This document shows positions 39,622 to 58,800 of a stretch of 64,000 bases of DNA, piece by piece; the first letter of the stretch is position 1; each line of letters opens with the position of its first letter. The notes under the pieces are model-generated. The model was not told the origin of the DNA, did no database searches, and worked only from the letters and a program-made list of their open reading frames with translations. This DNA comes from an uncultured Lachnospiraceae bacterium (lineage in GTDB: Bacteria; Bacillota; Clostridia; Lachnospirales; Lachnospiraceae). The stretch is from NCBI GenBank assembly GCA_902781895.1, contig CACZLA010000004.1, positions 24,644 through 88,643 on the forward strand, given 5' to 3'. The translations under genes and the position numbers were made by a program.

Positions 39622-39624
39622 AAT

Positions 39625-41178
39625 ATGGGCGAGAAAAAGAATCACAGCATTAAAATCATAATAGGCACCATTCTTTTAGTTATAAGTATGGGATTTCAGT
39701 TACTGGCCTGGTATATAAATGATCAGGGCAGCTATTATGTTGCTCAGACAATCAGACTGGTATCTGTTTTTGTTTTTGTCATTGCTGTTGTGATCCTTCT
39801 TCTTATTTATGCTCAGATGAGTAAGGAAAGGGCAGCGCAGAGAAAAGAGAATATAACTATTTACGGTATTGCAAAGTCTCTTTCCTTTGATTATGACAGT
39901 GTTTATTATCTGAATACCGATGACGACAGTTATCTTGAGTATGGCAGAAAAGAGGGAGATAAAACCGGAGAGGCACTGACTATTCTTTCAGCCGGAGACG
40001 ATTTCTTTGCTGACACGGTAGTTAATGCTGAGAAGATGGTTTATGAACCGGACAGGAAAAAATTTCTTGCTCTCTTTGAAAAGGAGAATCTTTATACTTT
40101 ATTTAATGAAAAAAGAGCTGTTGAACTGGATTACAGACTCGTTCTTGACGATGGAATATATTATTATCACCTGAAGGTTACACAGGGAAGCGGACCTGAA
40201 GATAAATATATAGTTATCGGTGTCAGAAATAATGATAAGCAGAAGCGTGAAGAGGACAAGGTAAAGGCGGCTGTAGAAGAGGGTGTGACCTATGGAAAGA
40301 TAGCACAGGCTCTTGCTTCCAGATATGAGGTTCTTTACTATGTAAATACCAATACAAATGAGTATGAAGAGTATAGCTCAAGTAAAGAATACAGCAGGCT
40401 TGACAAAGGAAACCATGGACAGGATTTCTTTGAGGACTGTCAGAAGAATATGGTTCGTGATATCTATTCCGAAGATTACAAAACGCTGGCTGCGGCTATG
40501 GAAAAGAACACATTGCTGGCATCAGTAGAGGAAAAGAGAACATTTTCCATAGTATATCGTTTGATTATTGATGGAAAACCCGAATACGTGAATCTCAGAG
40601 CGGTAAGGCCGAGAGATGATAATGAGCATATCATTATCGGAGTTATCAATATCAATGAGAGCATGCAGAAGGAAGAAGAATATAAGGAACGTATTGATAT
40701 GGTCATGAATATGGCCAATCGTGATGTTCTTACAGGTGTTAAGAATAAGAATGCTTATTCGATCATGGAAAAAGAAATCAACGAGCAGATAAAGAATGAA
40801 GAGAATTTGAAGTTTGCCGTTGCCATGTGTGATGTGAACAATCTTAAGATCATAAACGATACTAAGGGACATACGGCAGGTGATGAATATATACGTGAAG
40901 CCTGTATGATGATTTGCCGCGTATTTAAACACAGTCCTGTTTACAGGATCGGTGGTGATGAGTTTGTTGTTATCCTGAAGGGAGAGGACTTTGACCATAG
41001 AAGGATACTTCTTGAACAGCTTAAGATTGAGGTGGAAATGAATATCGAAGACGGAAAGGTAATAGTAGCCTGTGGTATGGCAGACTTTATGTCCGGAGAA
41101 GATAAATCTTTAAGTGACGTCTTTGAAAAAGCCGATAATGAGATGTATAATAACAAGAAGTTATTAAAATATAAGTAA
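39625..41178 (+). CDS. membrane-bound diguanylate cyclase with two PAS-like domains
   Basis: 517 residues. Two N-terminal transmembrane helices (about 9-30 and 40-63) are followed by two related PAS-like domains (each starting with a YGIAKSLSFDYDSVYYLNT / YGKIAQALASRYEVLYYVNT pattern) and a C-terminal GGDEF domain. The active motif is intact (YRIGGDEFVVIL) with DVLTGVKNKNAY and the metal-binding DVNNLK. Probably makes c-di-GMP in response to a signal bound by the duplicated sensor. No RxxD inhibitory site was evident by eye. Confidence 0.88.
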   Translation: MGEKKNHSIKIIIGTILLVISMGFQLLAWYINDQGSYYVAQTIRLVSVFVFVIAVVILLLIYAQMSKERAAQRKENITIYGIAKSLSFDYDSVYYLNTDDDSYLEYGRKEGDKTGEALTILSAGDDFFADTVVNAEKMVYEPDRKKFLALFEKENLYTLFNEKRAVELDYRLVLDDGIYYYHLKVTQGSGPEDKYIVIGVRNNDKQKREEDKVKAAVEEGVTYGKIAQALASRYEVLYYVNTNTNEYEEYSSSKEYSRLDKGNHGQDFFEDCQKNMVRDIYSEDYKTLAAAMEKNTLLASVEEKRTFSIVYRLIIDGKPEYVNLRAVRPRDDNEHIIIGVININESMQKEEEYKERIDMVMNMANRDVLTGVKNKNAYSIMEKEINEQIKNEENLKFAVAMCDVNNLKIINDTKGHTAGDEYIREACMMICRVFKHSPVYRIGGDEFVVILKGEDFDHRRILLEQLKIEVEMNIEDGKVIVACGMADFMSGEDKSLSDVFEKADNEMYNNKKLLKYK

Positions 41179-41197
41179 TACATGAAAGAGGTTTATT

Positions 41198-42082
41198 ATG
41201 AGTGAATATGTACTTAGCTGTTGTGCGGCATGTGATCTGAATCCGGAGTGGATGGAGAGAAGGAGTATAGAGTATATTCCTTTCAAGCTGACGCTGGATG
41301 GTGAGGAGTATCCTGATGATATGGGAAAAACATTTTCTCCGAGAGAGCTTCTCAAGAAAATGGAGGAGGGTGCTGATGCAAAAACCTCACAGATCAGTAC
41401 GGGTGATTACATGGATTATTTCAGAGAATTTCTGAAACAGGGAAAGGATATAGTTCATGTATCTCTTTCTACGGGGATATCCGGAACCTTTCAGAGTGCC
41501 TGTCTTGCAGCTGAGGAGTTAAAGAAGGAATTTCCTGACAGAAAGATATATGTTGTGGATTCGCTGGCAGCGTCTTCAGGCTATGGGCTTTTGATGGATT
41601 ATGCTGCTGATATGAGAGACAGTGGTCTGTCGGCTGAAGAGCTTGTTAAGTGGATAGAAGAAAACAAGCTTAATATGGTTCACTGGTTTTTCTCAACGGA
41701 TCTTACATATTATATAAAGGGAGGCCGTGTTTCAAAGACAGCCGGTACTATCGGACAGGTGCTTAATATTTGCCCTCTTCTGAATGTGGATAATGAGGGA
41801 AGACTTATTCCCCGTGAGAAGATCAGAACCAAGAAGAAGGTTGTAAAGAGAATAGTTGAAAAAATGATAGAGAATGCCGACAGTGGTATAAACTACACCG
41901 GAAAGGTATTCCTTTCGGATACAGATCAGGAGCTGGGAGATCAGGTTGAGAGCCTTATCAGTGAGATATTCCCACAGCTGAAGGGACGTATATCAAGGTT
42001 TGATATAGGCTGTACTATCGCAAGCCATACAGGTCCAGGAACAGTAGCCCTGTTCTTCAAGGGTAAGAAGAGAGTTGACTGA
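41198..42082 (+). CDS. DegV family fatty-acid-binding protein
   Basis: 294 residues. DegV proteins bind fatty acids, and some serve as FakB subunits delivering them to fatty acid kinase. The family motifs are visible: KTSQISTGDYMDYF, STGISGTFQSACLA, VDSLAASSGYGLLM and a C-terminal HTGPGTVALFF. No fakA gene is seen nearby, so the FakB role is only a family inference. Confidence 0.88.
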   Translation: MSEYVLSCCAACDLNPEWMERRSIEYIPFKLTLDGEEYPDDMGKTFSPRELLKKMEEGADAKTSQISTGDYMDYFREFLKQGKDIVHVSLSTGISGTFQSACLAAEELKKEFPDRKIYVVDSLAASSGYGLLMDYAADMRDSGLSAEELVKWIEENKLNMVHWFFSTDLTYYIKGGRVSKTAGTIGQVLNICPLLNVDNEGRLIPREKIRTKKKVVKRIVEKMIENADSGINYTGKVFLSDTDQELGDQVESLISEIFPQLKGRISRFDIGCTIASHTGPGTVALFFKGKKRVD

Positions 42083-42180
42083 TGATTTACCTAAGTGACA
42101 ATGGAAAAAAGCTATTTTTGATATTCACATCATAGTATAAATAATCGTTAAAAATAAAAAAAGAAAATACAGAAAGATAA

Positions 42181-43284
<1,104 letters not shown>

Positions 43285-43325
43285 GCCGTTATTTATATCC
43301 GGCAGGCTTGAAAAGGGGGATATGC

Positions 43326-43787
43326 GTGGTTTATACAGATATGACCATACTGGCCATGAAGGTTGCTTACGCGGCACATGAGGGACAGGTGGACAGGATA
43401 GGAGTGCCGTATATATATCATCCGATTCATCTGGCTGAACAGATGGATACTGAGGATGAGTGTGTGGCTGCACTGCTTCATGATGTAGTAGAAGATACGG
43501 ATATTACTCTTGAAGAACTTAGGAGTAAGGGGTTTACGGATACGCAGCTGGAAGCGGTAGAGCTTCTTACCCATATACCTTCCCCGGAGAAACAGGCGGA
43601 AGAGGAAAAGCTGGAGGAATATCTGGATTATGTCAGAAGGCTTAAATCAAATGCCATAGCCCGTAAGGTTAAAATGGCAGATCTCAGGCACAACTCCGAT
43701 CCCGAAAGAAAAACGGGAGATGAAGAGGCAGACCTGATACGCCATGAGAAATATAAAAAGGCACTGGATATACTTATTCAGGAATAA
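43326..43787 (+). CDS. small HD-domain phosphohydrolase (RelA/SpoT hydrolase-like)
   Basis: Stand-alone HD domain of about 153 residues resembling the (p)ppGpp hydrolase half of SpoT and the small Mesh1-type enzymes: YHPIHLAEQ (His), LLHDVVEDT (His-Asp) and MADLRHN (Asp). The frame opens at a TTG (43308), but the AGGGGG at 43313-43318 is correctly spaced for the GTG at 43326. Actual substrate unproven. Confidence 0.78.
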   Translation: MVYTDMTILAMKVAYAAHEGQVDRIGVPYIYHPIHLAEQMDTEDECVAALLHDVVEDTDITLEELRSKGFTDTQLEAVELLTHIPSPEKQAEEEKLEEYLDYVRRLKSNAIARKVKMADLRHNSDPERKTGDEEADLIRHEKYKKALDILIQE

Positions 43788-43851
43788 TAAAAAAATCAGA
43801 ATTAATAAATATGATCTGAAATAATGAATATATGAATTATGCGTTGGCATT

Positions 43852-43890
43852 AAAAAAAGACGGATGGGGTGTTCCGTCTTTTTTTGCCTT
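43852..43890. terminator. bidirectional terminator between the HD gene and the 3D-domain gene
   Basis: AAAAAAAGACGGA pairs with TCCGTCTTTTTTT around an 8 nt loop, serving both convergent transcripts. Confidence 0.9.
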
Positions 43891-43922
43891 TCGGCAAGAA
43901 GGGGGTATGTCAAATATAAGTA

Positions 43923-44471
43923 TTAGTCTTCTTCAATAATATATACATTTGCACTTCGACGACCGAAGCTTATTGCTTCACCGTATGAACCGACAAATAC
44001 GTCGATAACTCCGCCGCCCATTCCACCGGTATCTTCAACTACATATTCTCCGTAGCCTTCGATATATATTCTTGTTCCAAGTGGAAGTGAATTACATGCA
44101 ACTGTATGATTAACTGTAGGATATACACCTGAAGCACAAGGACTTCCTGTTGCAATATAAGCTGTCAGCTGATATGAACCCACAAGTGTCATCTTAGGAC
44201 CGGCGTTCTTTTCAGCAAGCTCATCAAGACTTTTCTTTGCAAGGAACTTGTTTGCTTCCTCTTCTTTATCATGAGCCTCACGAAGTGCTTCCTCAGCTTC
44301 TATCTTTTCTAATTCTAATCTTTCTTTGTTTGATTCCAGCATCTCGCTTGTTTCGGGGTAGAGCATATGACCTTCATACGCTGCTGTATCGAGATCCGGA
44401 CTGAATGTTGAATAAGCAAATAAAAATGATAACGATGTAACAAATGTTACAAGCTTTACGTGTTTTTTCAT
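43923..44471 (-). CDS. secreted 3D-domain protein (double-psi beta-barrel)
   Basis: 182 residues. An N-terminal signal sequence (LVTFVTSLSFLFAYSTF), a helical Glu-rich region (residues 35-90) and a C-terminal 3D domain named for its three aspartates (YQLTAYIATGSPCASG; LPLGTRIYIEGYGEYVVEDTGGM; GGVIDVFV). The fold is shared with MltA/Stp-type lytic transglycosylases and resuscitation-promoting YabE/YuiC proteins, so peptidoglycan cleavage is likely. AAAGGAG precedes the ATG. Confidence 0.87.
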   Translation of the reverse strand: MKKHVKLVTFVTSLSFLFAYSTFSPDLDTAAYEGHMLYPETSEMLESNKERLELEKIEAEEALREAHDKEEEANKFLAKKSLDELAEKNAGPKMTLVGSYQLTAYIATGSPCASGVYPTVNHTVACNSLPLGTRIYIEGYGEYVVEDTGGMGGGVIDVFVGSYGEAISFGRRSANVYIIEED

Positions 44472-44760
44472 AATTACTCCTTTCGCATATAATGTTTTAC
44501 AATATTATTAAGAAAAATGCAACACTTTTGTAACAAAATCTAAAAAGTTTGTAGAAAATGTTAATAAAATATAAACTAAAATCCATCATTTGTATATTTT
44601 CACCATAAAAGTACAAAATCTTGGGTTTTTATATCATTTATATCTTTTAAAATGTTACATTTAAAGTAACATTTGTTTCGGATCCAGGCCGAAATGAAGC
44701 AAAAAAAGGTATTTTGCGGTTGAAAATCGTAAAAATCATAAAATAGTTACAACAAATCAG
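44472..44760. other. AT-rich divergent intergenic region
   Basis: No gene is seen. It holds an inverted repeat ATGTTAC (44652-44658) and GTAACAT (44666-44672), a candidate operator or weak terminator, and scattered TGTAAC/GTTAC half-sites (for example 44528-44535). Promoters for both flanking genes must lie in the gap from here to 44830. Confidence 0.5.
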
Positions 44761-44816
44761 TTGACATTTGGAGCAGAAGATATTATATTGAACATATGAA
44801 CAAGTGAACATATGAA
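44761..44816 (+). promoter_or_regulatory. promoter and putative ArsR operator of the metal operon
   Basis: TTGACA (44761-44766), 17 bp spacer, TATATT (44784-44789). Two direct copies of GAACATATGAA (44790-44800 and 44806-44816; 16 bp period) follow immediately over the transcription start. ArsR/SmtB repressors usually bind AT-rich repeats like these, so autoregulation by the downstream arsR is likely. Confidence 0.7.
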
Positions 44817-44830
44817 ACAAAGGAGGTAAT

Positions 44831-45166
44831 ATGGCAGACAATATGATTAATAGTGATCCTGCGGCAAATGTTGCAAAGAATATGCCTGCTGATGAATATT
44901 TATATGATCTTGCAGATCTGTTTAAGATATTCGGGGATACTACGAGGATAAGAATACTTTATTCATTATTTGATAATGAGCTTTGTGTAGGAGATATTTC
45001 GGAGATATTGGGGCTCACTCAGTCTTCGGTAAGCCATCAGCTCAGGATACTTAAGGATTCAAAGCTGGTTAAGTTCAGAAGGGACGGAAAGAGTATCTTC
45101 TATTCATTAGATGATGACCATGTACGTTCCATCCTGAATCTGGGTATGGAGCATCTGGAAGAATAA
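44831..45166 (+). CDS. ArsR/SmtB-family metal-responsive repressor
   Basis: 111-residue winged-helix repressor that leaves DNA when metal binds. ELCVGDISEIL (with the ELCV-type cysteine of the alpha-3 site) and the recognition helix TQSSVSHQLRILKDSKLV are clear. The C-terminal helix DDDHVRSILNLGMEHLEE carries the D-x-H...H-x-x-E pattern of an alpha-5 Zn/Co site. First gene of an operon with an HMA protein and a P-type ATPase. Confidence 0.92.
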   Translation: MADNMINSDPAANVAKNMPADEYLYDLADLFKIFGDTTRIRILYSLFDNELCVGDISEILGLTQSSVSHQLRILKDSKLVKFRRDGKSIFYSLDDDHVRSILNLGMEHLEE

Positions 45167-45291
45167 GATAGACAGGAATGATAATAAGAAAGATTATTAA
45201 GATTAAGAAAGAAAAAAAGATAAGATAAATAATAGAAAAATAATAATAGGAAAGATAACAATAAGGATAATAATAAGGAGAATAAGAAAAA
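45167..45291. other. C-depleted purine-rich spacer between arsR and the HMA gene
   Basis: About 125 bp made almost entirely of A, G and T, with only two C residues on the plus strand and many GATAA/AATAA/AAGATTA units. No coding potential is seen. The strand asymmetry suggests an unstructured mRNA spacer or decayed repeats. Confidence 0.6.
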
Positions 45292-45510
45292 ATGAAGAAG
45301 ACATATAAGATCGATGTTGATTGCGCAGCCTGTGCAGAGAAAATGCAGGAGGCCATAAAGAATACAGAGGGCGTGGAAAGTGCTACTGTCAGCTTCATGA
45401 CACTTAAGTGTAAGGTGGAGTTTAAGGATGGCGTGGATTCTGACGCGGTTATAAAGGCTGCACGTGAGAACTGCAAGAAGGTTGAATCTGATTGTGAGAT
45501 ATTCATTTAA
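45292..45510 (+). CDS. heavy-metal-associated (HMA) domain protein
   Basis: 72-residue ferredoxin-like metal chaperone. The metal site is DCAAC near the N-terminus, a variant associated with Zn/Cd/Pb rather than the Cu-type GMTCxxC. A second Cys pair occurs near the C-terminus (NCKK...SDCEIF). It probably supplies the ATPase encoded next, which lacks its own HMA domain. Confidence 0.9.
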   Translation: MKKTYKIDVDCAACAEKMQEAIKNTEGVESATVSFMTLKCKVEFKDGVDSDAVIKAARENCKKVESDCEIFI

Positions 45511-45580
45511 TCCTAAATAAGATAAAACAGATCCAAAGATTTTTTGATTGATTATTTATTGAGTTTATTGAGGAAAAATA

Positions 45581-47605
45581 ATGACAAAAAAACAGAAGAA
45601 CAACTTGATCCGGATTATTATAGCTTTAGTTCTTGTTGTGGCATTTTCGGTTGTATTCCATTTTACAGAGCTGCCATGGTTTGTGGAGCTGGCATGTTTT
45701 CTCATACCTTACTTTATTGTGGGATATGATGTTCTGCTGAAGGCGTGTAAAAATATCCGGAATGGTCAGGTATTTGATGAATGCTTTCTCATGTCCATAG
45801 CAACCATAGGCGCCATAGCGACGGGAGAGTACCTGGAAGGCGTAGCGGTTATGCTTTTCTATCAGATAGGGGAGCTTTTCCAGAGTATTGCAGTGGGAAA
45901 AAGCCGTCAGAATATTGCGGATCTTATGGATATCTGCCCTGAAGTTGCAAATGTACTCCATGAGGATGGTTCCATCACAGAGGAAGATCCCGACGACGTA
46001 GAGATAGGTTCTGTTATAATAGTAAATCCCGGCGAGAGAGTTCCTATAGACGGAATAATCATAGAGGGAGAAACAAGTCTGGATACAAGTGCACTTACAG
46101 GTGAGTCTGTTCCGAGAGCGGCTCATGTGGATGATGAGATAATCAGCGGATGCATATCCCTTACCGGAATGATTCGTATAAAGACCACAAAGGAGTTTGA
46201 AGATTCAACTGTATCCAAGATACTTGAGCTGGTTGAAAACTCCAGCATGAGAAAGGCCAAGGCTGAAAACTTTATTTCAAAATTTGCAAAGCATTATACC
46301 CCGATAGTGTGCTATGCGGCCCTTGCGCTTTTTGTACTGCCACCTGTTTTCAGAATCATTTTAGGCATGCCGCCTATGTGGCTGGACTGGCTTATGAGGG
46401 CTCTAACATTTCTCGTAATATCATGTCCATGTGCGGTGGTTATTTCCGTACCACTCAGCTTCTTCGGAGGTATAGGCTGTGCTTCATCAAAGGGAATTCT
46501 TGTAAAGGGTTCCAACTATCTGGAGGCACTGGCTGATACCGGAACAATAGTATTTGATAAGACCGGAACGCTTACTAAGGGCGTTTTCGAGGTTCAGGAT
46601 ATTTATACAAACGGAGATGTTTCAAGAGACTATCTGCTGCAAAGAGCAGCGAATGCCGAGAGCACGTCGAATCATCCCATAGCAGAGTCGGTTCTCAGAG
46701 CGTACAAAAAAGAATTTAAAAATGAAATCAATTACAGTCTGATTTATGATGCGGAGGAGATAGCCGGTCACGGCGTTTCTATCAAATATAGAGAGACACC
46801 GGACGGTGTAGTTGAATCAGTTGATAAAAGAAGCGTTTCGGGCGAGGAGACCCACTTCAAAATATATGCCGGAAATATGAGACTCATGAAGATGGTCGGA
46901 GTAGAAGTTCCGGAGCAACATGATGAAGGAACTGTAGTTTATGTTGCAGAGAGCTGTCTGGGAAATTCAGAGACAGACGAAAATGAGAATTTATCTGATA
47001 AGGAAATAAAATATCTCGGATGTATCGTTATCGCTGATGAATTAAAGGAAACAAGTGCGGCAGCTATGGAGAGACTTCGTAAGCAGGGTATAAAGACTAT
47101 AATGCTTACGGGAGATTCCGAGAAGGCAGCAAAGCTTATTGCTGAAAAGGTTGGTGTTTCGGAGTATAAGTCAGAGCTTCTGCCGGGAGATAAAGTAAAT
47201 GAGGTTGAACGACTGCTTGGTGAAGAAGAGTCAGATGACGCCTCAGGGAAAACTGAAATCAAGAGTCGGCTGGCATTTGTCGGTGACGGAATAAATGATG
47301 CTCCCGTACTTGCCAGAGCGGATATAGGAATTGCAATGGGTGCCATGGGCTCGGATGCTGCGATAGAAGCGGCTGACATAGTTCTCATGGATGATGATCC
47401 TGCCAAGATATCTCTGGCCATGAAGATTGCAAGAAAAACCCTTAAAATAGTAAGGCAGAATATTACATTTGCCATAGCAGTAAAGGTGCTCTGTCTGATA
47501 CTTGGTGCACTCGGAATAGCAAATATGTGGCTTGCCATTTTCGCGGATGTGGGTGTAATGGTGATCGCGGTGCTGAATGCTACCAGAGCACTTAGAATAA
47601 AATAA
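45581..47605 (+). CDS. P1B-type Zn/Cd/Pb-exporting ATPase
   Basis: 674 residues. Membrane metal motif CPCAVVISVP, phosphorylation site DKTGTLTKG, TGES loop (LTGESVPR), HP locus (NHPIAES) and hinge GDGINDAPVLARADIGIAMG are present. The CPC motif and the DCAAC chaperone favour divalent Zn/Cd export (ZntA/CadA type). The N-terminal HMA domain is missing and supplied by the separate upstream gene. The nucleotide-binding domain has a longer acidic insertion around residues 455-475. GAGG lies upstream of the ATG. Confidence 0.92.
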   Translation: MTKKQKNNLIRIIIALVLVVAFSVVFHFTELPWFVELACFLIPYFIVGYDVLLKACKNIRNGQVFDECFLMSIATIGAIATGEYLEGVAVMLFYQIGELFQSIAVGKSRQNIADLMDICPEVANVLHEDGSITEEDPDDVEIGSVIIVNPGERVPIDGIIIEGETSLDTSALTGESVPRAAHVDDEIISGCISLTGMIRIKTTKEFEDSTVSKILELVENSSMRKAKAENFISKFAKHYTPIVCYAALALFVLPPVFRIILGMPPMWLDWLMRALTFLVISCPCAVVISVPLSFFGGIGCASSKGILVKGSNYLEALADTGTIVFDKTGTLTKGVFEVQDIYTNGDVSRDYLLQRAANAESTSNHPIAESVLRAYKKEFKNEINYSLIYDAEEIAGHGVSIKYRETPDGVVESVDKRSVSGEETHFKIYAGNMRLMKMVGVEVPEQHDEGTVVYVAESCLGNSETDENENLSDKEIKYLGCIVIADELKETSAAAMERLRKQGIKTIMLTGDSEKAAKLIAEKVGVSEYKSELLPGDKVNEVERLLGEEESDDASGKTEIKSRLAFVGDGINDAPVLARADIGIAMGAMGSDAAIEAADIVLMDDDPAKISLAMKIARKTLKIVRQNITFAIAVKVLCLILGALGIANMWLAIFADVGVMVIAVLNATRALRIK

Positions 47606-47643
47606 ATGTTTTGAAGTACTGTGAACAGTAACATGTTTTGAAA

Positions 47644-47676
47644 GGAGCGGTGACTGAGATGCACCGCTCCTTGATG
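47644..47676 (+). terminator. terminator of the metal operon
   Basis: GGAGCGGTG pairs with CACCGCTCC around a 9 nt loop, followed by a T-rich TTGATGATTTTTATTT. The downstream end doubles as the -35 element of the purE promoter. Confidence 0.75.
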
Positions 47677-47713
47677 ATTTTTATTTATAGTGATATAATG
47701 ACATAAGTGTCAT
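47671..47713 (+). promoter_or_regulatory. purE promoter with -10/palindrome motif
   Basis: TTGATG (47671-47676), 17 bp spacer, TATAAT (47694-47699), with ATGACATAAGTGTCAT (47698-47713; 6 bp perfect arms) starting on the last two bases of the -10. Same geometry as at 7132-7151 and 29715-29734. Confidence 0.6.
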
Positions 47714-47721
47714 AGATCAAT

Positions 47722-47755
47722 ATGCTTTTCTGCTTGCAGAAAAAGCATTTTGACT
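47722..47755 (+). terminator. possible attenuator hairpin in the purE leader
   Basis: ATGCTTTTCTGC pairs with GCAGAAAAAGCAT (one bulge) and is followed by TTTTGACTTT. The T-run is interrupted, so termination strength is uncertain. Confidence 0.4.
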
Positions 47756-47870
47756 TTATGACACGCTGAAACATGAGGAAGTAGCTGTTTTTGAAAAAAA
47801 CAAGCGGATTCCGAATGTTTCAAGGATTGTGAGAGTTTCGTAAGAAACGAAGCAATCCGTATGTCATAAA
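47755..47870 (+). ncRNA. structured three-way-junction element before purE
   Basis: A 9 bp perfect closing stem (TTTATGACA 47755-47763 with TGTCATAAA 47862-47870) encloses two arms. Arm one: TGAAACAT (47767-47774) with ATGTTTCA (47815-47822), containing an inner hairpin TGTTTTT/AAAAACA. Arm two: GGATTG (47824-47829) with CAATCC (47853-47858), containing TTCGT/ACGAA. It could be a cis-regulatory RNA for purE or a miniature element with terminal inverted repeats. It does not match the purine riboswitch consensus as I know it. Together with the promoter, hairpins and operator it fills the 300 bp gap before purE. Confidence 0.5.
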
Positions 47871-47908
47871 ATGTACATTATTATAGATGTTAAAGAAAGG
47901 GAATGTAT

Positions 47909-48412
47909 ATGAAAGCAGCAGTTATTATGGGGTCAACCAGTGATCTTCCGAAGGTTGAACCGGCAATAAATCTTTTAAAAGATTCCGGGGTTAGTGTAAA
48001 AGTAAGATGTCTTTCAGCTCACAGAGCTTCAAGACAGTTGACAAAGTTTATCGAAGAATTAAATGGTGACGGAACAGAGGTTATCATTGCAGCAGCAGGA
48101 ATGGCAGCTGCCCTTCCGGGAGTTGTTGCAGCACAGACTGTACTTCCTGTTATTGGAGTTCCTCTTTCAGGATCAGTTCTTGACGGACAGGATGCACTTT
48201 ATTCAATAGTACAGATGCCACCCGGAATTCCGGTTGCAACAGTTGCTATTAACGGTGCAAAGAATGCAGCATGGCTTGCACTTGAAATCATGGCTGTAAG
48301 ACATGATGAGCTTCGTGCAGCACTTCTCTTTGAGAGAAAGAAGATGGCGGATGTTGCGGTAGCAGCGAATGAAGAGGTTATCTCAAAATACGAAGCAGAG
48401 GATGATGAGTAG
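47909..48412 (+). CDS. purE: N5-carboxyaminoimidazole ribonucleotide mutase
   Basis: Class I PurE of de novo purine synthesis. IMGSTSDLP at the N-terminus, catalytic His in LSAHRAS and the GMAAALPGVVA and GSVLDGQDALYSIVQMP motifs are intact; 167 residues from the ATG at 47909. The ATG at 47903 is too close to the AAAGGG site. Convergent with purC, sharing a terminator. Confidence 0.96.
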   Translation: MKAAVIMGSTSDLPKVEPAINLLKDSGVSVKVRCLSAHRASRQLTKFIEELNGDGTEVIIAAAGMAAALPGVVAAQTVLPVIGVPLSGSVLDGQDALYSIVQMPPGIPVATVAINGAKNAAWLALEIMAVRHDELRAALLFERKKMADVAVAANEEVISKYEAEDDE

Positions 48413-48439
48413 GGATTCATCTGTAAACAGATGCTTTTA

Positions 48440-48498
48440 TACAAGAAAAAAGGATGTGGTTTTGATTTACGAGCAATCACCACATCCTTTTTCTTGTA
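48440..48498. terminator. bidirectional terminator between purE and purC
   Basis: A 20 bp near-perfect stem (ACAAGAAAAAAGGATGTGGT with its complement ending TTTTTCTTGT) around an 18 nt loop, A-rich on one side and T-rich on the other. Confidence 0.88.
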
Positions 48499-48507
48499 TA
48501 GTTCTGT

Positions 48508-49380
48508 TTATAATCTTTCTCCTGTCAACATCTCATATGCAGAGAGGTACTTATCTATTGTCTTATCTACGATATCCTGTGGAAGCTCCCAGTCTTCAGG
48601 CTTTGCTGTGTTGGCATCAGACTTGAGCCAGTCACGTGCGAACTGCTTATCGAAGGATGGCTGACCGTGTCCCGGTTCATATCCGTCTGCAGGCCAGAAA
48701 CGTGATGAATCAGGTGTGAGCATTTCGTCACCGACAACGATGTTTCCGTCTTCGTCGAGTCCGAACTCGAACTTGGTATCTGCAATTATGATTCCCTTTG
48801 TAAGAGCGTAGTCAGCACATTTGTTGTAAAGTGCGAGAGTGTAGTCGCGAAGCTTTTCTGCATATTCCTGTCCTTTGCCCGGGAAGTCCTTCTCGAGAAT
48901 CTCTATTGTCTTTTCAAAGGAGATGTTTTCGTCGTGATCTCCGATCTCAGCCTTGGTGGAAGGAGTATAGATTGGTTCAGGAAGTTTAGAAGATTCGACT
49001 AAGCCTTCCGGAAGGATGATACCACAGACTTTACCAGTCTTCTGATAACTTGCCCAGCCAGAACCGGTGATGTAACCTCTGACGATACATTCGATTGGAA
49101 TCATGGTCAACTTCTTACACATGATGGTTCTGCCTTCAAATTCCTTGGTCTGGAAGAATGCTGGCATATCTTTGACATCGGTGGATAAAAGATGATTCTC
49201 ACAGATATCTTTCGTGTAGTCGAACCAGAACTTACTCATCTGCGTCAAGACTTTACCTTTGTTGGTAACAATGTTGTGGAGAATGACATCGAAACAACTG
49301 ATACGATCGGTGGCAACCATGATGAGGCTATCGCCGTTGTCGTAGATCTCTCTGACCTTACCTTCTTTAATTGGTTTCAT
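48508..49380 (-). CDS. purC: SAICAR synthetase with mosaic codon usage
   Basis: Phosphoribosylaminoimidazole-succinocarboxamide synthase. Motifs include KEGKVREIY, TDRISCFDV, the SAICAR signature near IECIVRGYITGSGW, and DTKFEFGLDEDGNI. The start is ATG at 49380 with AAAGGA upstream; the frame also opens from a TTG at 49410. The protein is intact (290 residues), but codon use changes abruptly at about 48,940-48,960. In the N-terminal half Gly is 10 of 10 GGT/GGC and Thr is never ACA. In the C-terminal half Gly is 8 of 11 GGA and Thr is 6 of 8 ACA. The gene therefore joins two sources. Confidence 0.95.
   Translation of the reverse strand: MKPIKEGKVREIYDNGDSLIMVATDRISCFDVILHNIVTNKGKVLTQMSKFWFDYTKDICENHLLSTDVKDMPAFFQTKEFEGRTIMCKKLTMIPIECIVRGYITGSGWASYQKTGKVCGIILPEGLVESSKLPEPIYTPSTKAEIGDHDENISFEKTIEILEKDFPGKGQEYAEKLRDYTLALYNKCADYALTKGIIIADTKFEFGLDEDGNIVVGDEMLTPDSSRFWPADGYEPGHGQPSFDKQFARDWLKSDANTAKPEDWELPQDIVDKTIDKYLSAYEMLTGERL
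48940..48960. other. compositional junction inside purC
   Basis: The last right-type codons (TCC ACC, 48955-48960) and the first left-type codon (GGA, 48940-48942) bracket the change. Everything left of this resembles the Lachnospiraceae-type block, everything right the GGT/ACC-rich block. The intervening coding sequence is a conserved purC stretch. Natural recombination or a chimeric contig are both possible. Confidence 0.75.
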
Positions 49381-49550
49381 TGCTTTGTTTCCTTTATTCT
49401 TGTTTGACAACAGATTATATTTTAATCATCGGATAGTTAATAGCCAATAGAAAAATAAAATTGCTTTTAAGAAACCGGTATCTATGGGAAAAACAAAGAA
49501 AAGTTAGATTTAAGTATATTTTGGATAATTAAACATTTATAATAATTACA

Positions 49551-49603
49551 TTAAGTATTGAAAAGGAACGTTTTTTAAAGTTTAACGTTAAGTATCGAAA
49601 GGA
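49551..49603 (+). repeat. two near-identical direct repeats before the 49610 gene
   Basis: TTAAGTATTGAAAAGGA (49551-49567) and TTAAGTATCGAAAGGA (49588-49603) are separated by an AACGTT-flanked AT-rich segment (49568-49587). The second copy supplies the AAAGGAG ribosome site. The rest of the 230 bp upstream gap is AT-rich with no other feature seen. Confidence 0.65.
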
Positions 49604-49609
49604 GTTCAT

Positions 49610-52159
49610 ATGCCTACAGAGAACGACAATTTAAGCTGTGGTGATGGTAATTTAGAATTCTCTGCTAAGAAAAAAAGACACTTCAGTATCAAGGATTATC
49701 TAAGAGCGGGGGTTAGACTTTTGAAGTCTAGTCCATGGCTTTTTGCTTTGACGATTGTCTTATCTTCTTTATCCTTATCTTTTATAGGCTCTTCGTTAGC
49801 GATGACGTCGGTTCGTGAGATAGATGCCTTAACGCAAGCTATCCAGGATAGAGGATCTGGTGGGGTGACTTTTTACTTCAGCTCTTATTCGGATGACGGA
49901 TGGAATGAGAATGATTTTTCTAAGAAGGTAAAAGATGAAGTCTTAAATTATGGTGCTCATCTTTATACACCAGAAAGATTTGATTTGAATTTTGATACTT
50001 CTTGTTCTCTTTATGGACATCATCCAGATATCAATTATGATGGTAATGGATATTATGTGAGTCCTTCTGAGGAAGCTTTAAGCATCAATCAGAAATTCTT
50101 GGATGATAACCATCTAGAAATGGCTTATGGTGTCTTACCACAAGAGAAAACAGAAATTGCGTTATCCTTGCATGCGTTTTATAGCCTACAGGATTTTGGC
50201 TTTGTTGATGCGGTCGATAAGAGTTATAACTTAAAACCGCAGGATGATATCAAACCAGAAGATGTGCTCAATCACTATATCTCTGGGGTGGATTATATCT
50301 CTGGTGATCTTGTCTATTACAAGCTGGTCGGTTTAATCGATACGCAGTTTGATGAAGATACTTATGGTAAATATCGTAAGATATCCTATTCTAATGACTT
50401 CTCTGATCAAGAAGAATATCGAAAAATGGGTCGATTATTAAGTAATTCCCTCCACGAGATGGTCTTTATTTATGATAGTGGTGAAGCTCCTGAAGAAATG
50501 TATCATTCCTTCTTTTGCAGTGATGAAAGTAAAAGTAGTGAAGCCTATCGCTATTCTGTCGGTTATTATCCATCTCATGAACATACTTTATTCTTTGATG
50601 ATAGCAAGACTTCCTTACAAGGTGATGAGATTCTTGTTTCTTCGGAAAGATATTTCCATTTCTTGACCTATGGAATTCATTCTGAAATGCAGACATATCA
50701 ACCAGAAGACGCTTATTTTGATTTGGCTAAGACAAGACCGATTTCTTTTGAGTTCTATAACCGTGAAAACCTCTATAGGAGTTTTATTCCTGAGACTGCT
50801 ACTTATCAGTTGGCGGCTGAGAAATATCTTGATTTTAAAGATTCTTCGCTCTTTAAGATTTTCTATGAAAATCAGCAAACAAAGAAATATGGTGGCTATT
50901 ATGATAATTCCTATTATAAAGATGCTACTAATAAAACCAAGTTCGTCTATCCTTGGGAAAATGACACTTCTTATGTGTTGACTTCTAAGGATAAAGAAGT
51001 TATCTATCACTGCTTTAGAACCTATTTATATAATATTTGGAATTTGAAAGTTACTGATGCTTCTTATTATTCTGATTTGACGGCTCTTATTGCTAGTCTT
51101 ACTACCGATTATGACAACCACCATCCATATACTCCTGATGAATTAGATAATTATTATCAGGAAATGGAAAGAACTACGCGTGAAGAATATCTTTTAAATC
51201 ATGCGGAAAGCATCTATGCCCAGTATAAAGATCATCCGATTTATCAAGGCTTATACAAGAATCAGAAAAAGGCTGATACTGCTAAAAAGGATACCTTAGA
51301 TTATTTGATTGATCTAAAAGTGATCCCTGAAATCAGAGACGATTATCTAAAATATTTGATTGCTGCTTATAAAGATTGCTTAAAGGGCAAAACAGCCTTA
51401 GTGGAAATGGAGAGGAGTTTTGATCTTTATAATGAAGATAAAACTTTCAAGATTGTCGGTATTGATTTTGATTTGATAAATCGTTTCAAAAGAGCCTTAT
51501 CCTTGTCCACATCCGCTTTTGATGAATATACGAAATATTGGAATATCAAGAGTCCTTATTTAGATAATGAATTCCTCATGCTGATTCCCCAAGAGGAAGA
51601 GAGTATTCGTAATGTCGTCAATTTTGTCGAAAAATTTAATGAAACATATGACTATGATAGTTACTTAGTAAAAAATGGTGTTCCTCATGCAAGTATCTGG
51701 TGGAGAACGGAATCTTTATCTGATATTCATTATGAAGTTTATGACCTTCAAAGCACCTCTCTTTCTTATTTGATTGGCGGTATTCTTCTAGCAGTAACCG
51801 CTTTGGCTATTTTTATCCTCTATCTTATGAAGATAAAGAAGAAACAATGGAATTTCCGCTTGGTAGAAAATCAGGTAGAGGATGAAAAAGGCGTTGTTAA
51901 GATTGTCTCTGTTCAGTGTCTTTTTGTCGCTTTGATCAGTTACGTGATTTCTGTTTTGGTGATGAATTTGATTGTTTTGATCATCAATCTTGGTATCAAA
52001 GCCAGTTCATCCGTAGATATTTTCTTGATTTATACTCCAATCGGATCTTATTTCCTGATGCTTGGCGTTTCTTTATTGATGGCTGTTTTGGCTTTTATCT
52101 TCGTCTGGATATTCTATCTCAGAGAGAAGAAGTTAGATCAAGCAAGAACCCAAGAATAG
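49610..52159 (+). CDS. FtsX/MacB-like membrane protein with giant ectodomain, no ATPase
   Basis: 849 residues: cytoplasmic N-terminus, one transmembrane helix (about 43-63), an ectodomain of about 640 residues rich in Y, D, S and E, then three C-terminal helices (about 715-737, 770-795, 805-832). This is the four-helix layout of type VII (FtsX/MacB) permeases. Its ectodomain is paralogous to that of the next gene: compare LPQEKTEIALSLHAFYSLQDFGF and YYKLVGLIDTQFDEDTYGKYRK here with LPKESEEIALTTHVLQTYEDFGF and YYKITGFVDTQFPEETYKQYRK there. No nucleotide-binding domain is present. It probably pairs with the ATPase-containing partner. Substrate unknown. Ends in TAG. Confidence 0.75.
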   Translation: MPTENDNLSCGDGNLEFSAKKKRHFSIKDYLRAGVRLLKSSPWLFALTIVLSSLSLSFIGSSLAMTSVREIDALTQAIQDRGSGGVTFYFSSYSDDGWNENDFSKKVKDEVLNYGAHLYTPERFDLNFDTSCSLYGHHPDINYDGNGYYVSPSEEALSINQKFLDDNHLEMAYGVLPQEKTEIALSLHAFYSLQDFGFVDAVDKSYNLKPQDDIKPEDVLNHYISGVDYISGDLVYYKLVGLIDTQFDEDTYGKYRKISYSNDFSDQEEYRKMGRLLSNSLHEMVFIYDSGEAPEEMYHSFFCSDESKSSEAYRYSVGYYPSHEHTLFFDDSKTSLQGDEILVSSERYFHFLTYGIHSEMQTYQPEDAYFDLAKTRPISFEFYNRENLYRSFIPETATYQLAAEKYLDFKDSSLFKIFYENQQTKKYGGYYDNSYYKDATNKTKFVYPWENDTSYVLTSKDKEVIYHCFRTYLYNIWNLKVTDASYYSDLTALIASLTTDYDNHHPYTPDELDNYYQEMERTTREEYLLNHAESIYAQYKDHPIYQGLYKNQKKADTAKKDTLDYLIDLKVIPEIRDDYLKYLIAAYKDCLKGKTALVEMERSFDLYNEDKTFKIVGIDFDLINRFKRALSLSTSAFDEYTKYWNIKSPYLDNEFLMLIPQEEESIRNVVNFVEKFNETYDYDSYLVKNGVPHASIWWRTESLSDIHYEVYDLQSTSLSYLIGGILLAVTALAIFILYLMKIKKKQWNFRLVENQVEDEKGVVKIVSVQCLFVALISYVISVLVMNLIVLIINLGIKASSSVDIFLIYTPIGSYFLMLGVSLLMAVLAFIFVWIFYLREKKLDQARTQE

Positions 52160-52299
52160 CTAAGTGTTAGTAAAAATATCAGTATAAGTTACAATTGTTA
52201 CATGGTACAGAATTGATATCTTTGTGACCGATAATTCTATAGACCAGGATATCAGTTTGATATATTAAAAATACATAAAGTAAGGAGTGAACATTTCTT

Positions 52300-55200
52300 A
52301 TGTTAGAAGTAAAACACCTGAAGCGTGTCTACAAGGTTAAAAATGGCCAACCCGTATACGCGCTAGATGACGTATCCGTGAAGTTTCCAGAGACTGGTTT
52401 GGTCTTTATTTTAGGTAAATCCGGTTCTGGTAAATCCACCCTTTTAAATGTCATGGGCGGGTTGGATAAAGTCGATGATGGTGAAATCATCATCAACGGC
52501 AAGTCCAGCAAAGAGTTCTCTGGCAGTGAGATGGATTCCTATCGTAATACCTATTTAGGTTTTATCTTCCAGGAATACAACATCTTAAATGACTTTACAG
52601 TCAAAGAGAACATCGGTTTGGCTTTGCAGTTACAGCATAAGAAAGCCACCGATGAAGAAATCGATAAGATCTTAGCGGAAGTTGATTTGACCGGCTATGG
52701 CAAACGTAAACCTAATGAACTTTCCGGTGGTCAGAAACAAAGAGTCGCTATCGCCAGAGCCTTGGTCAAAGAGCCAAAGATCATCTTTGGTGATGAACCA
52801 ACTGGTGCTCTTGATAGCAATACGGGTAGACAGGTCTTTGAGACTTTAAAGAAGTTATCCAAGGATAAACTGGTTGTCATCGTCTCTCATGATAGAGACT
52901 TTGCGGAGCATTTTGGTGACCGAGTCATCGAACTCAAGGATGGTAAAGTCATCTCTGATATCTCCAAGATGAGCGTGGAAGCCAAACAGGAAAAACCGGG
53001 CGTCTCCATTCTTGGTAATAATGTCATCCGCATTGAAAAAGGTCATGCTTTAACTGTCGAAGATTTGGAAATCATCAATAAAACTTTGGCCAACCAACAA
53101 ACAGATACTTTCATCACTGCTGATGAACATGTTAATGATGCTATTTGCGAAGCCGCTAGAATTGATAAGAGCGGTAATCGTCAAGAATTCTTTGCTACCA
53201 AAAATGAAGACATCAAGTTGAACCAGGAGGATTTCAAACTCATCAAGTCTAATTTCTCCCTCCACAACGCGTTCAGGATGGGTAGCCGTTCTTTGAAAGT
53301 AAAACCATTCCGTTTGGTGATGACCATCCTTCTTTCTGCGATGTCCTTTACTCTCTTTGGTACCGCCTTTACCCTAGGTTTATTTAATTCTCCACAAGCG
53401 ATGACAGATACTGCTATTTCCCAAAAAATCAAATTCAGTCGCTTTGGCGCAAACTATAGATATACCTCATATAACACAACAAATTATCTTCCTGACGATG
53501 AAAAGGCAAAATTGGAAGACTTTGGTGCAAAAGTATTCAGCGTCGAAAATAATTACGCTGTTTTGAGTAATAATATTCCTGATGACGATTCCATCAACTA
53601 TGTAGACTTTCGAAACAATAATTATTATGCTAATTCTTTAAATTATGTTTTGGAAGTTACTGACACTTTCCTCTCGGATATCGGTTTTAGTGTTACTGCC
53701 GGCCAATTACCAAAGGAAAGTGAGGAGATTGCATTAACGACACACGTTTTGCAAACCTATGAAGATTTCGGCTTTAAAGATGCTATTGATTCAAATTACA
53801 TTGTGAAAACTGCTGACCATGTCACAGCTGAAAAGATCATTGGGCACTATATTGCAAGCAAAGATCCAGCTTCTGATGAAATGAAATATTATAAGATTAC
53901 GGGCTTTGTTGATACTCAATTCCCAGAAGAAACCTATAAACAATACCGTAAAGCTGAGACCGCACCAACCTGGAGTGATGAAGGTTATTCCAACTTGTAT
54001 TCCCTTGCTTATTCTTCTCTTCACTGTTGTGCATTTGTTGCTCCTGTTGAAGAAAATGTAGAGGAAGATAAGGTTTCAAAAACTGTTCTTTTCAGCCAAC
54101 TAGAGAACGATCACGTAGAATTCTCCTATGGTAACTATAAGTCTCATAATGCAAAATACTTCTTCCAGGATGGTAAAACTGTTTTGGCCAATGATGAGGC
54201 GTTAATCAATCCGCAGGGTTATTTCCGTTTGTTGAACGCTAAATATAGTGAACAGCGTCCAGATTATCAGAGAAACTATACTCCTAGTAATGTCTACAGT
54301 GATTATGATCAAACTATGACCATGAGTCGTGATTTCTATTCCAGAGAAGAAATCACTAATAACTTCCTTCCTGAAGTTGCCATCAATCGTGTAGCAAGGG
54401 AGAAATATCTGGATTTCAAGGATAATGAAATCTTTGAGGTTTACTATTCCAATACGAATGCAGAGTTGTATGGTTATTGTGACGACTCCACCTATCGTGA
54501 TCCAAATGATTCTAGCGTTGTCAATCTCCCCTGGAAAAGCGATCCATCTTATACTTTGTCAAATGATGATCACCATATCATCTATAACATCTTTAAATCT
54601 TATTTGTTTGCTATTTGGGGCAATAGGGTGTTAACCGCTCCATTCTATAGTTCTATCACTGAATATATTCAATTCTACGAACAGGAATTTGATACCCTCT
54701 TCCCAATGAGAAATTATGAGAAAGAAGAATTCTATAACTCAAAGGCAGACAACATCTTTGTTGAGTATTGCATTGCTCATGCAGAAGAAGTATATGAAGC
54801 CTACAAAAATCATCCAAACTATATAGCTCTTGCGAATATGTTCAATGGTGGCAGCACGATTGATAAAAAATCTATTCTTCGCATGATCATTGAACGACAA
54901 CTGTCAAGCTTCTCAGATGTTCTAACAAAATACAATAATTATTTTGCGACAGCAATATCCGACACAATTAAAAAACTCAATCCATCAGAAGAATCTCTCT
55001 CTCTGAGATATTATAATGGCGATGGTGAAGAGGGTTGCCAAATCACTGTTGTTGGCTTTGATTTCGAACTTCCAACAACCAACTATCCAATTCCTCTCCA
55101 TATGAATTTAGAAACAACGGAGAGACTTATGAATGATAGTAAAGAATCATTTACTTCTGAATCTGAGAATTATATGGTTCTTCTTCCTAAAGAACGTGCG

Positions 55201-55755
55201 CAGATGGAAAAATTCTTCAAGTATGTTGAAGATAGAAGAAAAGAAATCGAAAGTTATGAATGGGAGGATGTCCCGATTGGTAGTGTGTCATTTTATTTTG
55301 ATGAGACCCAACTCAGCAGCGTTCAGTCCTTGTCCTATACGCTTTCTATCTTAACTAATGTCTTCATTTATGTCGGCTTGGGTTTGGCGGTGTTTTCCAT
55401 GTTCCTCTTCTATAACTTCATCTCGATCTCCATTAATAACAAGAAGAGAGAAATCGGTATTCTCAGAGCCGTCGGTGCCAAACGTGGCGATGTCTTCAAG
55501 ATCTTCTACTCGGAATCTTTCATTATTGCTTCCATCAACTTCTTGTTGTCTGGTGCTAGTACTTTAGCTTTATGTCTTGCGCTTAATAATATCTTTATAC
55601 AACAAGCTGAGGTAACATTTAACATCATGACTCCAAATGTGATGGTCTTTGGTATTCTTATGGCTTTATCCTTGATAACTTCTATTATTTCTGCCTTGAT
55701 TCCTGTTACAAGAATAGCAAACAAGAAACCGATCGACGCCATTCAAAATAGATAA
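52300..55755 (+). CDS. ABC ATPase-permease fusion (MacB/FtsX type) with giant ectodomain
   Basis: 1151 residues. Residues 1-225 form a LolD/MacB-type ATPase: Walker A GKSGSGKST, signature ELSGGQKQRVAIARAL, Walker B IIFGDEPTGALD, H-loop VSHD. A linker of about 110 residues leads to TM1 (about 340-362), an ectodomain of about 650 residues, and three C-terminal helices with the FtsX-typical KKREIGILRAVGAKRGDVFKIF between TM2 and TM3. It belongs to the mechanotransmission class that drives periplasmic or surface processes rather than classical transport. The ectodomain is far larger than MacB's. 140 bp after its ATPase-less paralogue, same direction. Confidence 0.82.
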   Translation: MLEVKHLKRVYKVKNGQPVYALDDVSVKFPETGLVFILGKSGSGKSTLLNVMGGLDKVDDGEIIINGKSSKEFSGSEMDSYRNTYLGFIFQEYNILNDFTVKENIGLALQLQHKKATDEEIDKILAEVDLTGYGKRKPNELSGGQKQRVAIARALVKEPKIIFGDEPTGALDSNTGRQVFETLKKLSKDKLVVIVSHDRDFAEHFGDRVIELKDGKVISDISKMSVEAKQEKPGVSILGNNVIRIEKGHALTVEDLEIINKTLANQQTDTFITADEHVNDAICEAARIDKSGNRQEFFATKNEDIKLNQEDFKLIKSNFSLHNAFRMGSRSLKVKPFRLVMTILLSAMSFTLFGTAFTLGLFNSPQAMTDTAISQKIKFSRFGANYRYTSYNTTNYLPDDEKAKLEDFGAKVFSVENNYAVLSNNIPDDDSINYVDFRNNNYYANSLNYVLEVTDTFLSDIGFSVTAGQLPKESEEIALTTHVLQTYEDFGFKDAIDSNYIVKTADHVTAEKIIGHYIASKDPASDEMKYYKITGFVDTQFPEETYKQYRKAETAPTWSDEGYSNLYSLAYSSLHCCAFVAPVEENVEEDKVSKTVLFSQLENDHVEFSYGNYKSHNAKYFFQDGKTVLANDEALINPQGYFRLLNAKYSEQRPDYQRNYTPSNVYSDYDQTMTMSRDFYSREEITNNFLPEVAINRVAREKYLDFKDNEIFEVYYSNTNAELYGYCDDSTYRDPNDSSVVNLPWKSDPSYTLSNDDHHIIYNIFKSYLFAIWGNRVLTAPFYSSITEYIQFYEQEFDTLFPMRNYEKEEFYNSKADNIFVEYCIAHAEEVYEAYKNHPNYIALANMFNGGSTIDKKSILRMIIERQLSSFSDVLTKYNNYFATAISDTIKKLNPSEESLSLRYYNGDGEEGCQITVVGFDFELPTTNYPIPLHMNLETTERLMNDSKESFTSESENYMVLLPKERAQMEKFFKYVEDRRKEIESYEWEDVPIGSVSFYFDETQLSSVQSLSYTLSILTNVFIYVGLGLAVFSMFLFYNFISISINNKKREIGILRAVGAKRGDVFKIFYSESFIIASINFLLSGASTLALCLALNNIFIQQAEVTFNIMTPNVMVFGILMALSLITSIISALIPVTRIANKKPIDAIQNR

Positions 55756-55764
55756 AGTAAAAAA

Positions 55765-55800
55765 ACAACCTGACTTTTAAAGGTCAGGTTGTTATTTTTG
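55765..55800. terminator. bidirectional terminator between the ABC gene and the EAL gene
   Basis: ACAACCTGAC (55765-55774) pairs with GTCAGGTTGT (55783-55792), with A-rich left and T-rich right flanks. Confidence 0.85.
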
Positions 55801-55810
55801 CTAGGAAGAT

Positions 55811-58800
55811 TTACTTCTTGGTGATCTCGTTGAAACGGTCCATGAAGAGCTTGTTGAAGCCCTCTGGAGAGTTCTTCGCTTCTTCAGAGTTGACAGCGAT
55901 GGTATCAACAAAGAGGGTGACAGGAACACCATTGACATTCTTGATGGATTCGATGATGGAGACGATGCGATCGGTGAAGATTTCCGAGTTGCTCTCATTT
56001 AAGAAGGAGCGGATGATGGCAAAGCTGCCAAAGCCGATATGAGAGATGGAACTGTCGACACCGAAGTTTGTCTTTAAGGAAGTGGCGATTTCACGTTCGA
56101 CATCATGGGCGATATCCTTACCCTGTAAGTTTTCGATTTCCTTGATGTTACGAACATGAATGGTGATGGCACTGAAGGGGACGTTTAACTTTCTCGATTC
56201 ATTGATGTATCTCAATAAGCCATCTAAGAAACCACGGGAGTTAAGAACATCGGTTTCATTATCAATCATGCCATCTTCATAGGCTTTCTGCTGGGTTTTG
56301 TCATCGTGATCGACAAAGTAGCCAAACAAACCGATGATCTTACCTTCACGATAGATCGGCCAGACGGTAGTTGCGATATTGTGAGGAACACCTTTGATGA
56401 TACGGATACCAGGCATGGAATGAATCATCTTACCTTTGTTGAGAACTTCGCATTCATCGCACTGATGTTCGTCCATGTTGACGTTCCAGTGGATTTCCTT
56501 TTCGGTTTTACCGATGATTTCGTTTCTGTTCTTGAAGCCAAACGCGTCAAGGAAGGATTGAGAACAGCCCAAGAATTTGCCTTCTTTATCCTTCCAGAAG
56601 AACTTGACATCGGAATAGTTGACGGCATTTTCACAGAGATCTTTGTAGTTGATCGGTAACTTTAAGATGTCATTTAAGCCTTTTAAGGACATGATGCCCG
56701 CGACTTCTTCACGAAGGAGTTTTCTGGTGATGAGCAATAATTCGCCTTTTTCTGGTGAAGAGACAAGCAGGATGAACAACATCTTCCAGATGATTTCACC
56801 GTTTTTATCATAGAAACGCATCGGTCTGACGATATAACCGGTAGAACCAGCAGTGATGCGGTCCATCAAAGTCTTTTTATCGTAGAAGTCGATGAATAAC
56901 TGTTTATCTTCAATGTAGACCTGGTTTTGTAAGACGTAGTCGAGAGCGACACTGAAGGATCCGGAACTGATTCTCAATCTGTTCTTGTGGGTTGAGAAGT
57001 TGGAAATCGGGTCAATCTTATCTTCGTTGAGATTGACGGAATAGACTTCATCATAGATGGAATAGATGCTGGAGATGGTCTTTTCTAACTTGCCCTGGGT
57101 GAGTCTCTGTTCTTCGGTGGTGAGGTTGTTGATATAGACGACATACATGAAGTGTTCATCCAAAGCGGCGATGTTACGGGCCTGGATACGGATGTAGTTG
57201 CCTTTGTAGGTGTAGAAGAAGGTCTTTTCAACACCGACTTCTTCTGGTAAGTAAGAAGAGGTTTTGACCTTCTTAGCAAACATGGAAGTGTCAGAGTTCA
57301 AAAGTGTCTCTAATTCCGTGTTATTGCTGATGTTGATATAAGAGAGAATTCCTTTTAAGGCGTTGTTGATGAAGAGGGTTTCAAACTTGGAGGAATTCTT
57401 ATGATAGTTGACAATACACATCGGCATATTCTCATTGAAGTCGATACGAGAAATCTCATTGTAGAAATGAGAATAACGAGTGGCTTCCATGCTGACGCCT
57501 CTTAATTCCAACAATTCCAGCATGTCTTCAAATGGAAGTGGTTTGGAGAAGAGATAACCCTGGGCTTTTTCACAGCCGACAGACTTTAAGAATTCAAAGT
57601 TCTCTTCGGTTTCAACACCCTCAGCAAGGGTCTGAATACCTAAGGATTTGGCTAAGGAAACGGTGTGCTTGACGATTTCTTGGCTCTTGACGGAGAAGTT
57701 TCTCATGAAGGCCATATCTAGCTTGATTTCATCAAAGGTGAAGTCTTTCAACGTACCTAAGGAGGAATAACCAGAACCGAAGTCATCCATCCAGATTTCA
57801 AAGCCTTCTTTTCTAAGCTTATTGGCGATTTCAATGATGCCTTCTGGATCTTCGACGAACAGGGATTCAGTGATTTCAATCTTTAAGGCAGAATGAGGAA
57901 TCTCATACATCTTACAAGTGTCGATGATGACGTTATAGACGTCCATCAACATGAAATCCAATCTGGATAAGTTGAAGGAGATAGGAACAACACCAAGACC
58001 TTTGTTGATACGGTCTCTGATGAGTTTACAGATCTCGTTGAGCATATGCTGGTCGATTTTGTGAATCTGACGAGCGTCTTCTAAGGCGGGGATGATGTTA
58101 GCAGGACTGATGATACCATATTGTGGGTCAACCCAACGGACTAAGGCTTCCGCGGAACATAATGTGCCGCTTAAGGTACGGACAACTGGCTGATAATAGG
58201 CCTGAATCTAACCTTTTTGGATGGCTTCATCCAAATGGTCGATGACGTAGTTATAGATACGCTGAGATCTCTTCATCTCATCGTCGTAGATCTTATACTG
58301 AATATCGTCAGAATAATCAAGTTCATGACAAGCGCGTCTAGCGTTATCTAAAGCGCCGTCAAGATTGGTCATATCTTCTTGTCCGATGACATAGACACCA
58401 GCCTTGAGGGTTACATTTTCATACATGTAGTCTTGGCGTAAGGTTTTGTTCAAGTCTTTGATCTTATCTTCGATATGAGAAGATTCGGCAAAGATACCAA
58501 AAACGGTATCACCCATTCTGGCAATCATGTTGCCAGCAAAATGTTTCTTTAAGATGGAAGCGACATCTTTGACAAGATCTTCACCAGCTTTGATGCCGTA
58601 ACGGATGATGAATCTCTTGAAGTGAAGGATGTTTAAATAGACGTAGGCATAAGAAGAAGAATCCATCGACTTGCTCATGATGCGAATCATCTTGTGAGAA
58701 TAGTCTCTGAGTCTTCTTGGTCCTGGAAGGCCGGTCACTTTATCGACGTCATAAGTTAAAAGCTTCTGGTCAGAGTCAACAAGATAGACATAGTAAAGAG

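Follow-up and report, generated by a model that had tools for sequence, protein, structure and literature searches.

Natural mosaic genes, such as the penicillin-binding protein genes and the tet mosaics, switch in frame between two parent alleles. They are found in isolates, both ends of the exchanged tract are known, and their parents are more similar than the two described here. We report on a purC gene that shares this in-frame switch, unlike them in that one end of the tract is missing, 15 kb take part and parental identity in the N-terminal half is about 70 %. The gene lies in the window, by which we mean the whole stretch of 64,000 nucleotides that was analysed, at the end of contig C4 (bases 24,644-88,643 of 88,643) of a binned, presumably metagenome-assembled genome (G000).

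The window also resembles the chimeric contigs described for GUNC (PMC8201837), in which fragments of distant lineages stand on one contig. The stated contamination of the genome is low (0.87), which agrees with the argument made there that such cases can escape marker counts. The authors expect most chimerism to be mis-binning of whole contigs, and treat chimeric contigs generated by misassembly as known but relatively rare beside mis-binning (PMC8201837). Unlike the cases described there, the join in the window falls inside a coding gene and keeps the frame, and its second source is named by exact sequence: it is G103, which belongs to the same order as a Bacilli MAG from horse faeces. Two lineages have contributed stretches to this one contig (Table 1), and we regard the window as an inter-genome chimeric contig with a probability of about 0.93.

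Table 1. Features of the window on both sides of the join, in window coordinates, with the evidence for each
Feature	Coordinates	Strand	Evidence
Host part of contig	1..48943	.	42 host-like genes; ends with an arsR-like gene, a heavy-metal P-type ATPase, purE and the purC C-part
purE, convergent with purC as in same-genus genomes	47903..48412	+	TIGR01162 above cut-off; 76-96 % aa to same-genus loci
purC C-part, host type	48508..48943	-	96.5, 94.4 and 93.7 % aa to L083, L085 and L084; 75.2 % to G103
Join region	48912..48960	-	codons of the conserved stretch STKAEIGDHDENIS; alignment with G103:C121
purC N-part, donor type	48944..49380	-	437/437 nt identical to G103:C121; nt tree SH-aLRT 99
Donor part of contig	48944..64000	.	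nine stringent pieces at 96.6-100 %; 6/6 scored genes donor-like
849 aa protein, donor type	49610..52159	+	without NCBIfam or Pfam match
ABC transporter, ATPase + FtsX-like permease, donor type	52300..55755	+	PF00005, PF02687
EAL-PAS protein, donor type	55811..58045	-	weak GGDEF match below cut-off; 98 % aa to G103 C79
PAS-GGDEF protein, donor type	58208..59152	-	99 % aa to G103 C79
tRNA-Ala	60,090-60,165		ARAGORN
mtaB, donor type	60288..61541	-	TIGR01579 above cut-off; 417/417 aa in G103:C169
tRNA-Gly + tRNA-Asp	62378..62542	-	ARAGORN
IS30-type element at contig end	62782..64000	+	IS30 model 69 bits, below cut-off 80; HTH_38

The purC gene extends from 48,508 to 49,380 on the minus strand and encodes 290 amino acids plus the stop. 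Recounting its codons, we found 6 GGT, 4 GGC and no GGA for glycine in the first half and no ACA among its 12 threonine codons, while the second half has GGA for 8 of 11 glycines and ACA for 6 of 8 threonines. The swing in codon score between the halves was reached by none of 2000 synonymous shuffles within the gene, and the best free change point inside purC was equalled in 2 of 500 shuffles. The swing is 68.4 in the window, compared to a maximum of 29.0 among the 99 homologous purC genes scored (101 loci tried, two of them without a usable purC).

The same break is seen at the scale of the contig. A change-point scan of codon usage over the window, with the ORF at 59,505-60,065 and the two IS30-type ORFs excluded, peaks at 48,910 with a log-likelihood gain of 767, compared to 47 or less in 30 shuffles. 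On codon tables derived from genes to either side of purC in the window itself, which were chosen from the ORF list, 42 of 42 scored genes left of purC have the habit of the window's own genome and 6 of 6 on the right are donor-like, with purC alone intermediate. Independent tests were provided by other contigs of the same genome, by G103 and by relatives. In eleven other stretches of the host genome 97 of 102 ORFs are host-like and 5 donor-like; all 30 ORFs in two same-genus stretches are host-like, none of the 10 ORFs on three G103 contigs is, and the two halves of purC in G103 both score as donor-like on codons (-43 and -51). The original prediction, made from the letters of the window, had given the same glycine and threonine counts and had claimed a shift in codon habit across the whole window, an abrupt change at 48,940-48,960 and an intact, in-frame gene. 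All of this stands: purC marks the break, the join at or near 48,944 lies within the interval given, and the frame is open, the product scoring 418.9 bits as PurC with a cut-off of 251.

To which genome does the right segment belong? The N-part of purC is closest to L021, L026 and L066, loci titled Erysipelotrichaceae and Bacilli, and is 77-79 % identical to the same-genus loci L083, L085 and L084. The donor was found by searching 196 genomes from the order of L066's genome, L021's genome included, with the mtaB of the right segment: G103 matches at 100 % over 417 aa, followed by G117 (87 %), G085 (69 %) and G111 (64 %), and the stepwise fall within the order of G103 goes on to 57 and 56 %. 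Contig C121 of G103 agrees with the first 437 nt of purC with 0 mismatches, the identity extending to 49,412. Of the 15.1 kb to the right of the join, about 10.7 kb align stringently to G103, at 96.6-100 % identity. Eight of the stringent pieces are collinear on contigs C121, C79 and C169, with 59 bases on C11, and the gaps fall mainly in the middle of the ABC transporter, at the break between C79 and C169 and at the end of the window. Two parts of the 849 aa protein are found on C121 and C79 at 97 % and 100 % aa identity, and the IS30-type element is present in G103 as pieces at 92 % and 84 %, with no match for the sequence in between. Other parts of the right segment have matches in G117 and G085. 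In the flanks of the 80 named loci, the right segment found only two matches, each of 65 bases. Contig C4 ends at window base 64,000 (C4 base 88,643), inside donor-type sequence.

G103 carries the gene whole on C121, with its own C-half and then a DUF1846 gene on the other side; that C-half is 83-85 % identical in amino acids to L021, L026 and L066 and 74-77 % to the host-genus loci. Its genus was represented by 15 genomes, and this purC type occurs in G103 alone, so an older, patchy transfer probably brought the Clostridia-type purC into its lineage. Relatives of this Clostridia-type gene are present in L021, L026 and L066. Beside the copy on C121 (L171 1980-2834), G103 has a second, short purC-like gene with 31 % identity on C61 (G103:C61:9481-10071).

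Trees of the two purC halves were built by a quick method with SH-aLRT support only, from 50 rows that included 19 of the 20 same-genus loci (L094 omitted), 28 of the 80 named loci (25 'other' and three from the Bacilli side), L099 and L171. In the nucleotide tree of the N-part the window groups with the four rows of the Bacilli side (SH-aLRT 99), its distance to G103 being zero. In that of the C-part it pairs with one same-genus row, its nearest being G016 (SH-aLRT 99), and the pair belongs to a group (SH-aLRT 98) made up of seven same-genus rows and four others. The protein trees place the halves in the same way by distance, the window belonging to no well supported set. The claim that purC is a mosaic of two genomes is thus confirmed by both routes: the second genome has been found, with a whole purC of its own, and separate phylogenies put the halves in different clades.

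The left side of the contig is that of the host. The P-type ATPase and purE were identified by NCBIfam, and the order of trpS, two small ORFs, the arsR-like gene, the P-type ATPase and the convergent purE and purC is wholly or partly kept in same-genus and Lachnospiraceae-type loci. The same-genus relatives of the purC C-part are Lachnospiraceae-type genomes, and those named loci that share this type of C-part carry the titles of Lachnospiraceae or Eubacterium MAGs, uncultured Lachnospiraceae RUG12023 (L003) among them. The genome that contains L003 and the same-genus genome G266 have their mtaB-like match at identical contig coordinates and are probably one and the same.

What would be expected beyond the 5' end of a host purC can be read from relatives. 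Of 12 loci examined, 10 have next to the 5' end of purC a member of a family represented by P0001, a protein with no Pfam match. The family adjoins purC in G016, G005, G008, G021, G004 (in part), G012 and G015, the seven genomes with the best same-genus purC matches, and is not beside purC in the remaining 12 (a purC match was obtained in 19 genomes of the genus). All 60 other genomes of the genus have a match to the family (60 of 61 in total), four of these being weak (E 1e-5 to 9e-4) and five at the level of a paralogue; the window's own genome is the only exception, and a search of its bin for the family gave no match. This genome is 91.7 % complete, so the missing family counts, by itself, as modest evidence. 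The P0001 family gene of the nearest same-genus genomes lies 5' of purC on the opposite strand (for example L174 2871-3872), and many same-genus genomes carry a longer paralogue with an open frame of about 1000-1200 aa.

The bin holds no second purC, whole or half, beside the copy on C4. A gene on contig C22 of the same bin is 34 % identical to the mtaB of the right segment; 46 of the 60 other same-genus genomes match that mtaB at E 1e-60 or better, the matches listed having 32-39 % identity, and this pattern suggests that the C22 gene is the host's own mtaB. As a separate observation, G012, a genome of the same genus, carries purC twice, on separate contigs (L088 and L111; 84 % and 76 % identical to the window protein), and L111 forms the longest branch in the C-half trees; G012 is perhaps another contaminated bin.

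At the join itself, the last window base identical to G103 is 48,944. The first departures past it are at 48,943, 48,940, 48,931, 48,928 and 48,912. Over gene nucleotides 451-765, blocks of 45 nt have 64-84 % identity between G103 and the window and 69-96 % between the window and the seven same-genus loci compared; in the last 45-nt blocks of purC, G103 is down to 42-61 %. The host's own purC N-half is absent from the bin, and the comparison of shared words used relatives instead. Within the first 460 nt, the average over 20 same-genus loci puts the block most shared with the donor at nt 141-160 and the runner-up, the join region, at nt 411-455. Exact words that cross the last shared base are 14-17 nt long and occur in 4 of the 20 same-genus loci (ungapped placement failed for L094); just beyond that base, words shared with same-genus loci reach 22 nt. 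Assemblers usually use a k of 21 or more, longer than the 14-17 nt words across the join. A shared k-mer is no more than a plausible hinge, and contig merging or a library chimera would be equally adequate. A junction like that of the window is absent from all other purC genes examined.

Two regions of the donor part have features of their own. The ABC transporter (52,300-55,755) and its G103 copy (L172 802-4221) are near-identical at the ends and divergent in the middle: identity is 98-100 % over residues 51-250 and 97-100 % in the adjacent genes, while blocks of 50 residues between about 350 and 1000 have only some 20-46 %. This suggests that the outer part of the permease is a module that changes fast or has been swapped inside one species. 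At 62,782-63,976, two overlapping ORFs in different frames have an HTH and a weak IS30/rve-type match, and are probably one IS30-type transposase in two frames.

The two sources have homologous purC genes: one is a Lachnospiraceae-type bacterium, whose genome was binned, the other a Bacilli-type organism very closely related to G103. We propose that their contigs were joined in the conserved STKAEIGDHDENIS stretch, either by a graph assembler, or when contigs were merged, or through a chimera in the library. The earlier transfer of this purC type to the donor lineage would have provided the homologous stretch that allowed the misjoin. The reading frame stays open because the two purC genes are homologous, and no cell need hold the hybrid gene. 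That the join arose outside the cell, at one of these steps and with a shared word as hinge, is what we infer from the comparisons above. The original prediction had left two possibilities, the import of a large segment by recombination within the gene or a chimeric contig with a conserved k-mer as the point of joining; the two-genome origin common to both holds, and the artefact is the better supported of the two.

Could a cell have made the join? The host would then have taken up at least 15 kb from a G103-like Bacilli cell in a recent event between Lachnospiraceae-type and Bacilli-type gut bacteria, replacing half of purC and leaving a hybrid in-frame SAICAR synthetase. We consider this very unlikely, although the intact frame and the PurC score would fit it and purC has seemingly moved between such lineages before, as its presence in one of 15 genomes of G103's genus indicates. 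Over their first 450 nt, the donor purC and those of 19 same-genus loci agree at only about 67-74 % of positions, which is poor for homologous exchange, and the 15 kb keep donor codon habit and gene order. A tract with both ends within recipient DNA was not found: the donor-type part reaches the end of the contig, which stops in the IS30-type element, and the far end of an import may lie beyond it. The right-segment mtaB has no match above 39 % among the same-genus matches listed, and the exchange would also require loss of the 5' neighbour of purC that is present in the nearest relatives.

It is still less probable that the contamination runs the other way, the right segment being native to the host and the G103 contigs misplaced. 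In favour of this, G103 is a draft and the only one of 15 congeneric genomes with a purC of this type. Against it, the mtaB identities fall stepwise (87-56 %) in the order of G103 compared to 32-39 % among the matches listed for the host genus, other parts of the right segment find matches in G117 and G085, and the sampled host stretches have the other codon habit. We rejected a single native genome whose codon usage drifts by local selection, expression or a genomic island as almost inconceivable. Some gene-to-gene variation does exist, as the donor-like 5 of 102 ORFs elsewhere in the genome indicate, but none of the 99 other purC genes scored has such a swing, and the simple form of this idea is refuted by the exact identity over 437 nt and the collinearity with a genome of another order, and by the conflict between the half trees.

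A join that proved real, against the odds, would amount to a gene conversion across classes affecting half of a housekeeping gene, and the tRNAs, mtaB, the c-di-GMP genes and the ABC transporter would have been imported with at least 15 kb. Under the chimeric contig that we favour, the join inside purC probably says nothing about living cells, and the finding matters mainly as a warning. The stated contamination of 0.87 does not reveal the foreign 15 kb. Codon habit, when read inside a single gene, can locate a misjoin with a precision of tens of bases. The 15 kb at the end of the contig should not be credited to the host genome: mtaB, three tRNA genes, the EAL and GGDEF proteins, the ABC transporter and the IS30-type element belong to another lineage.
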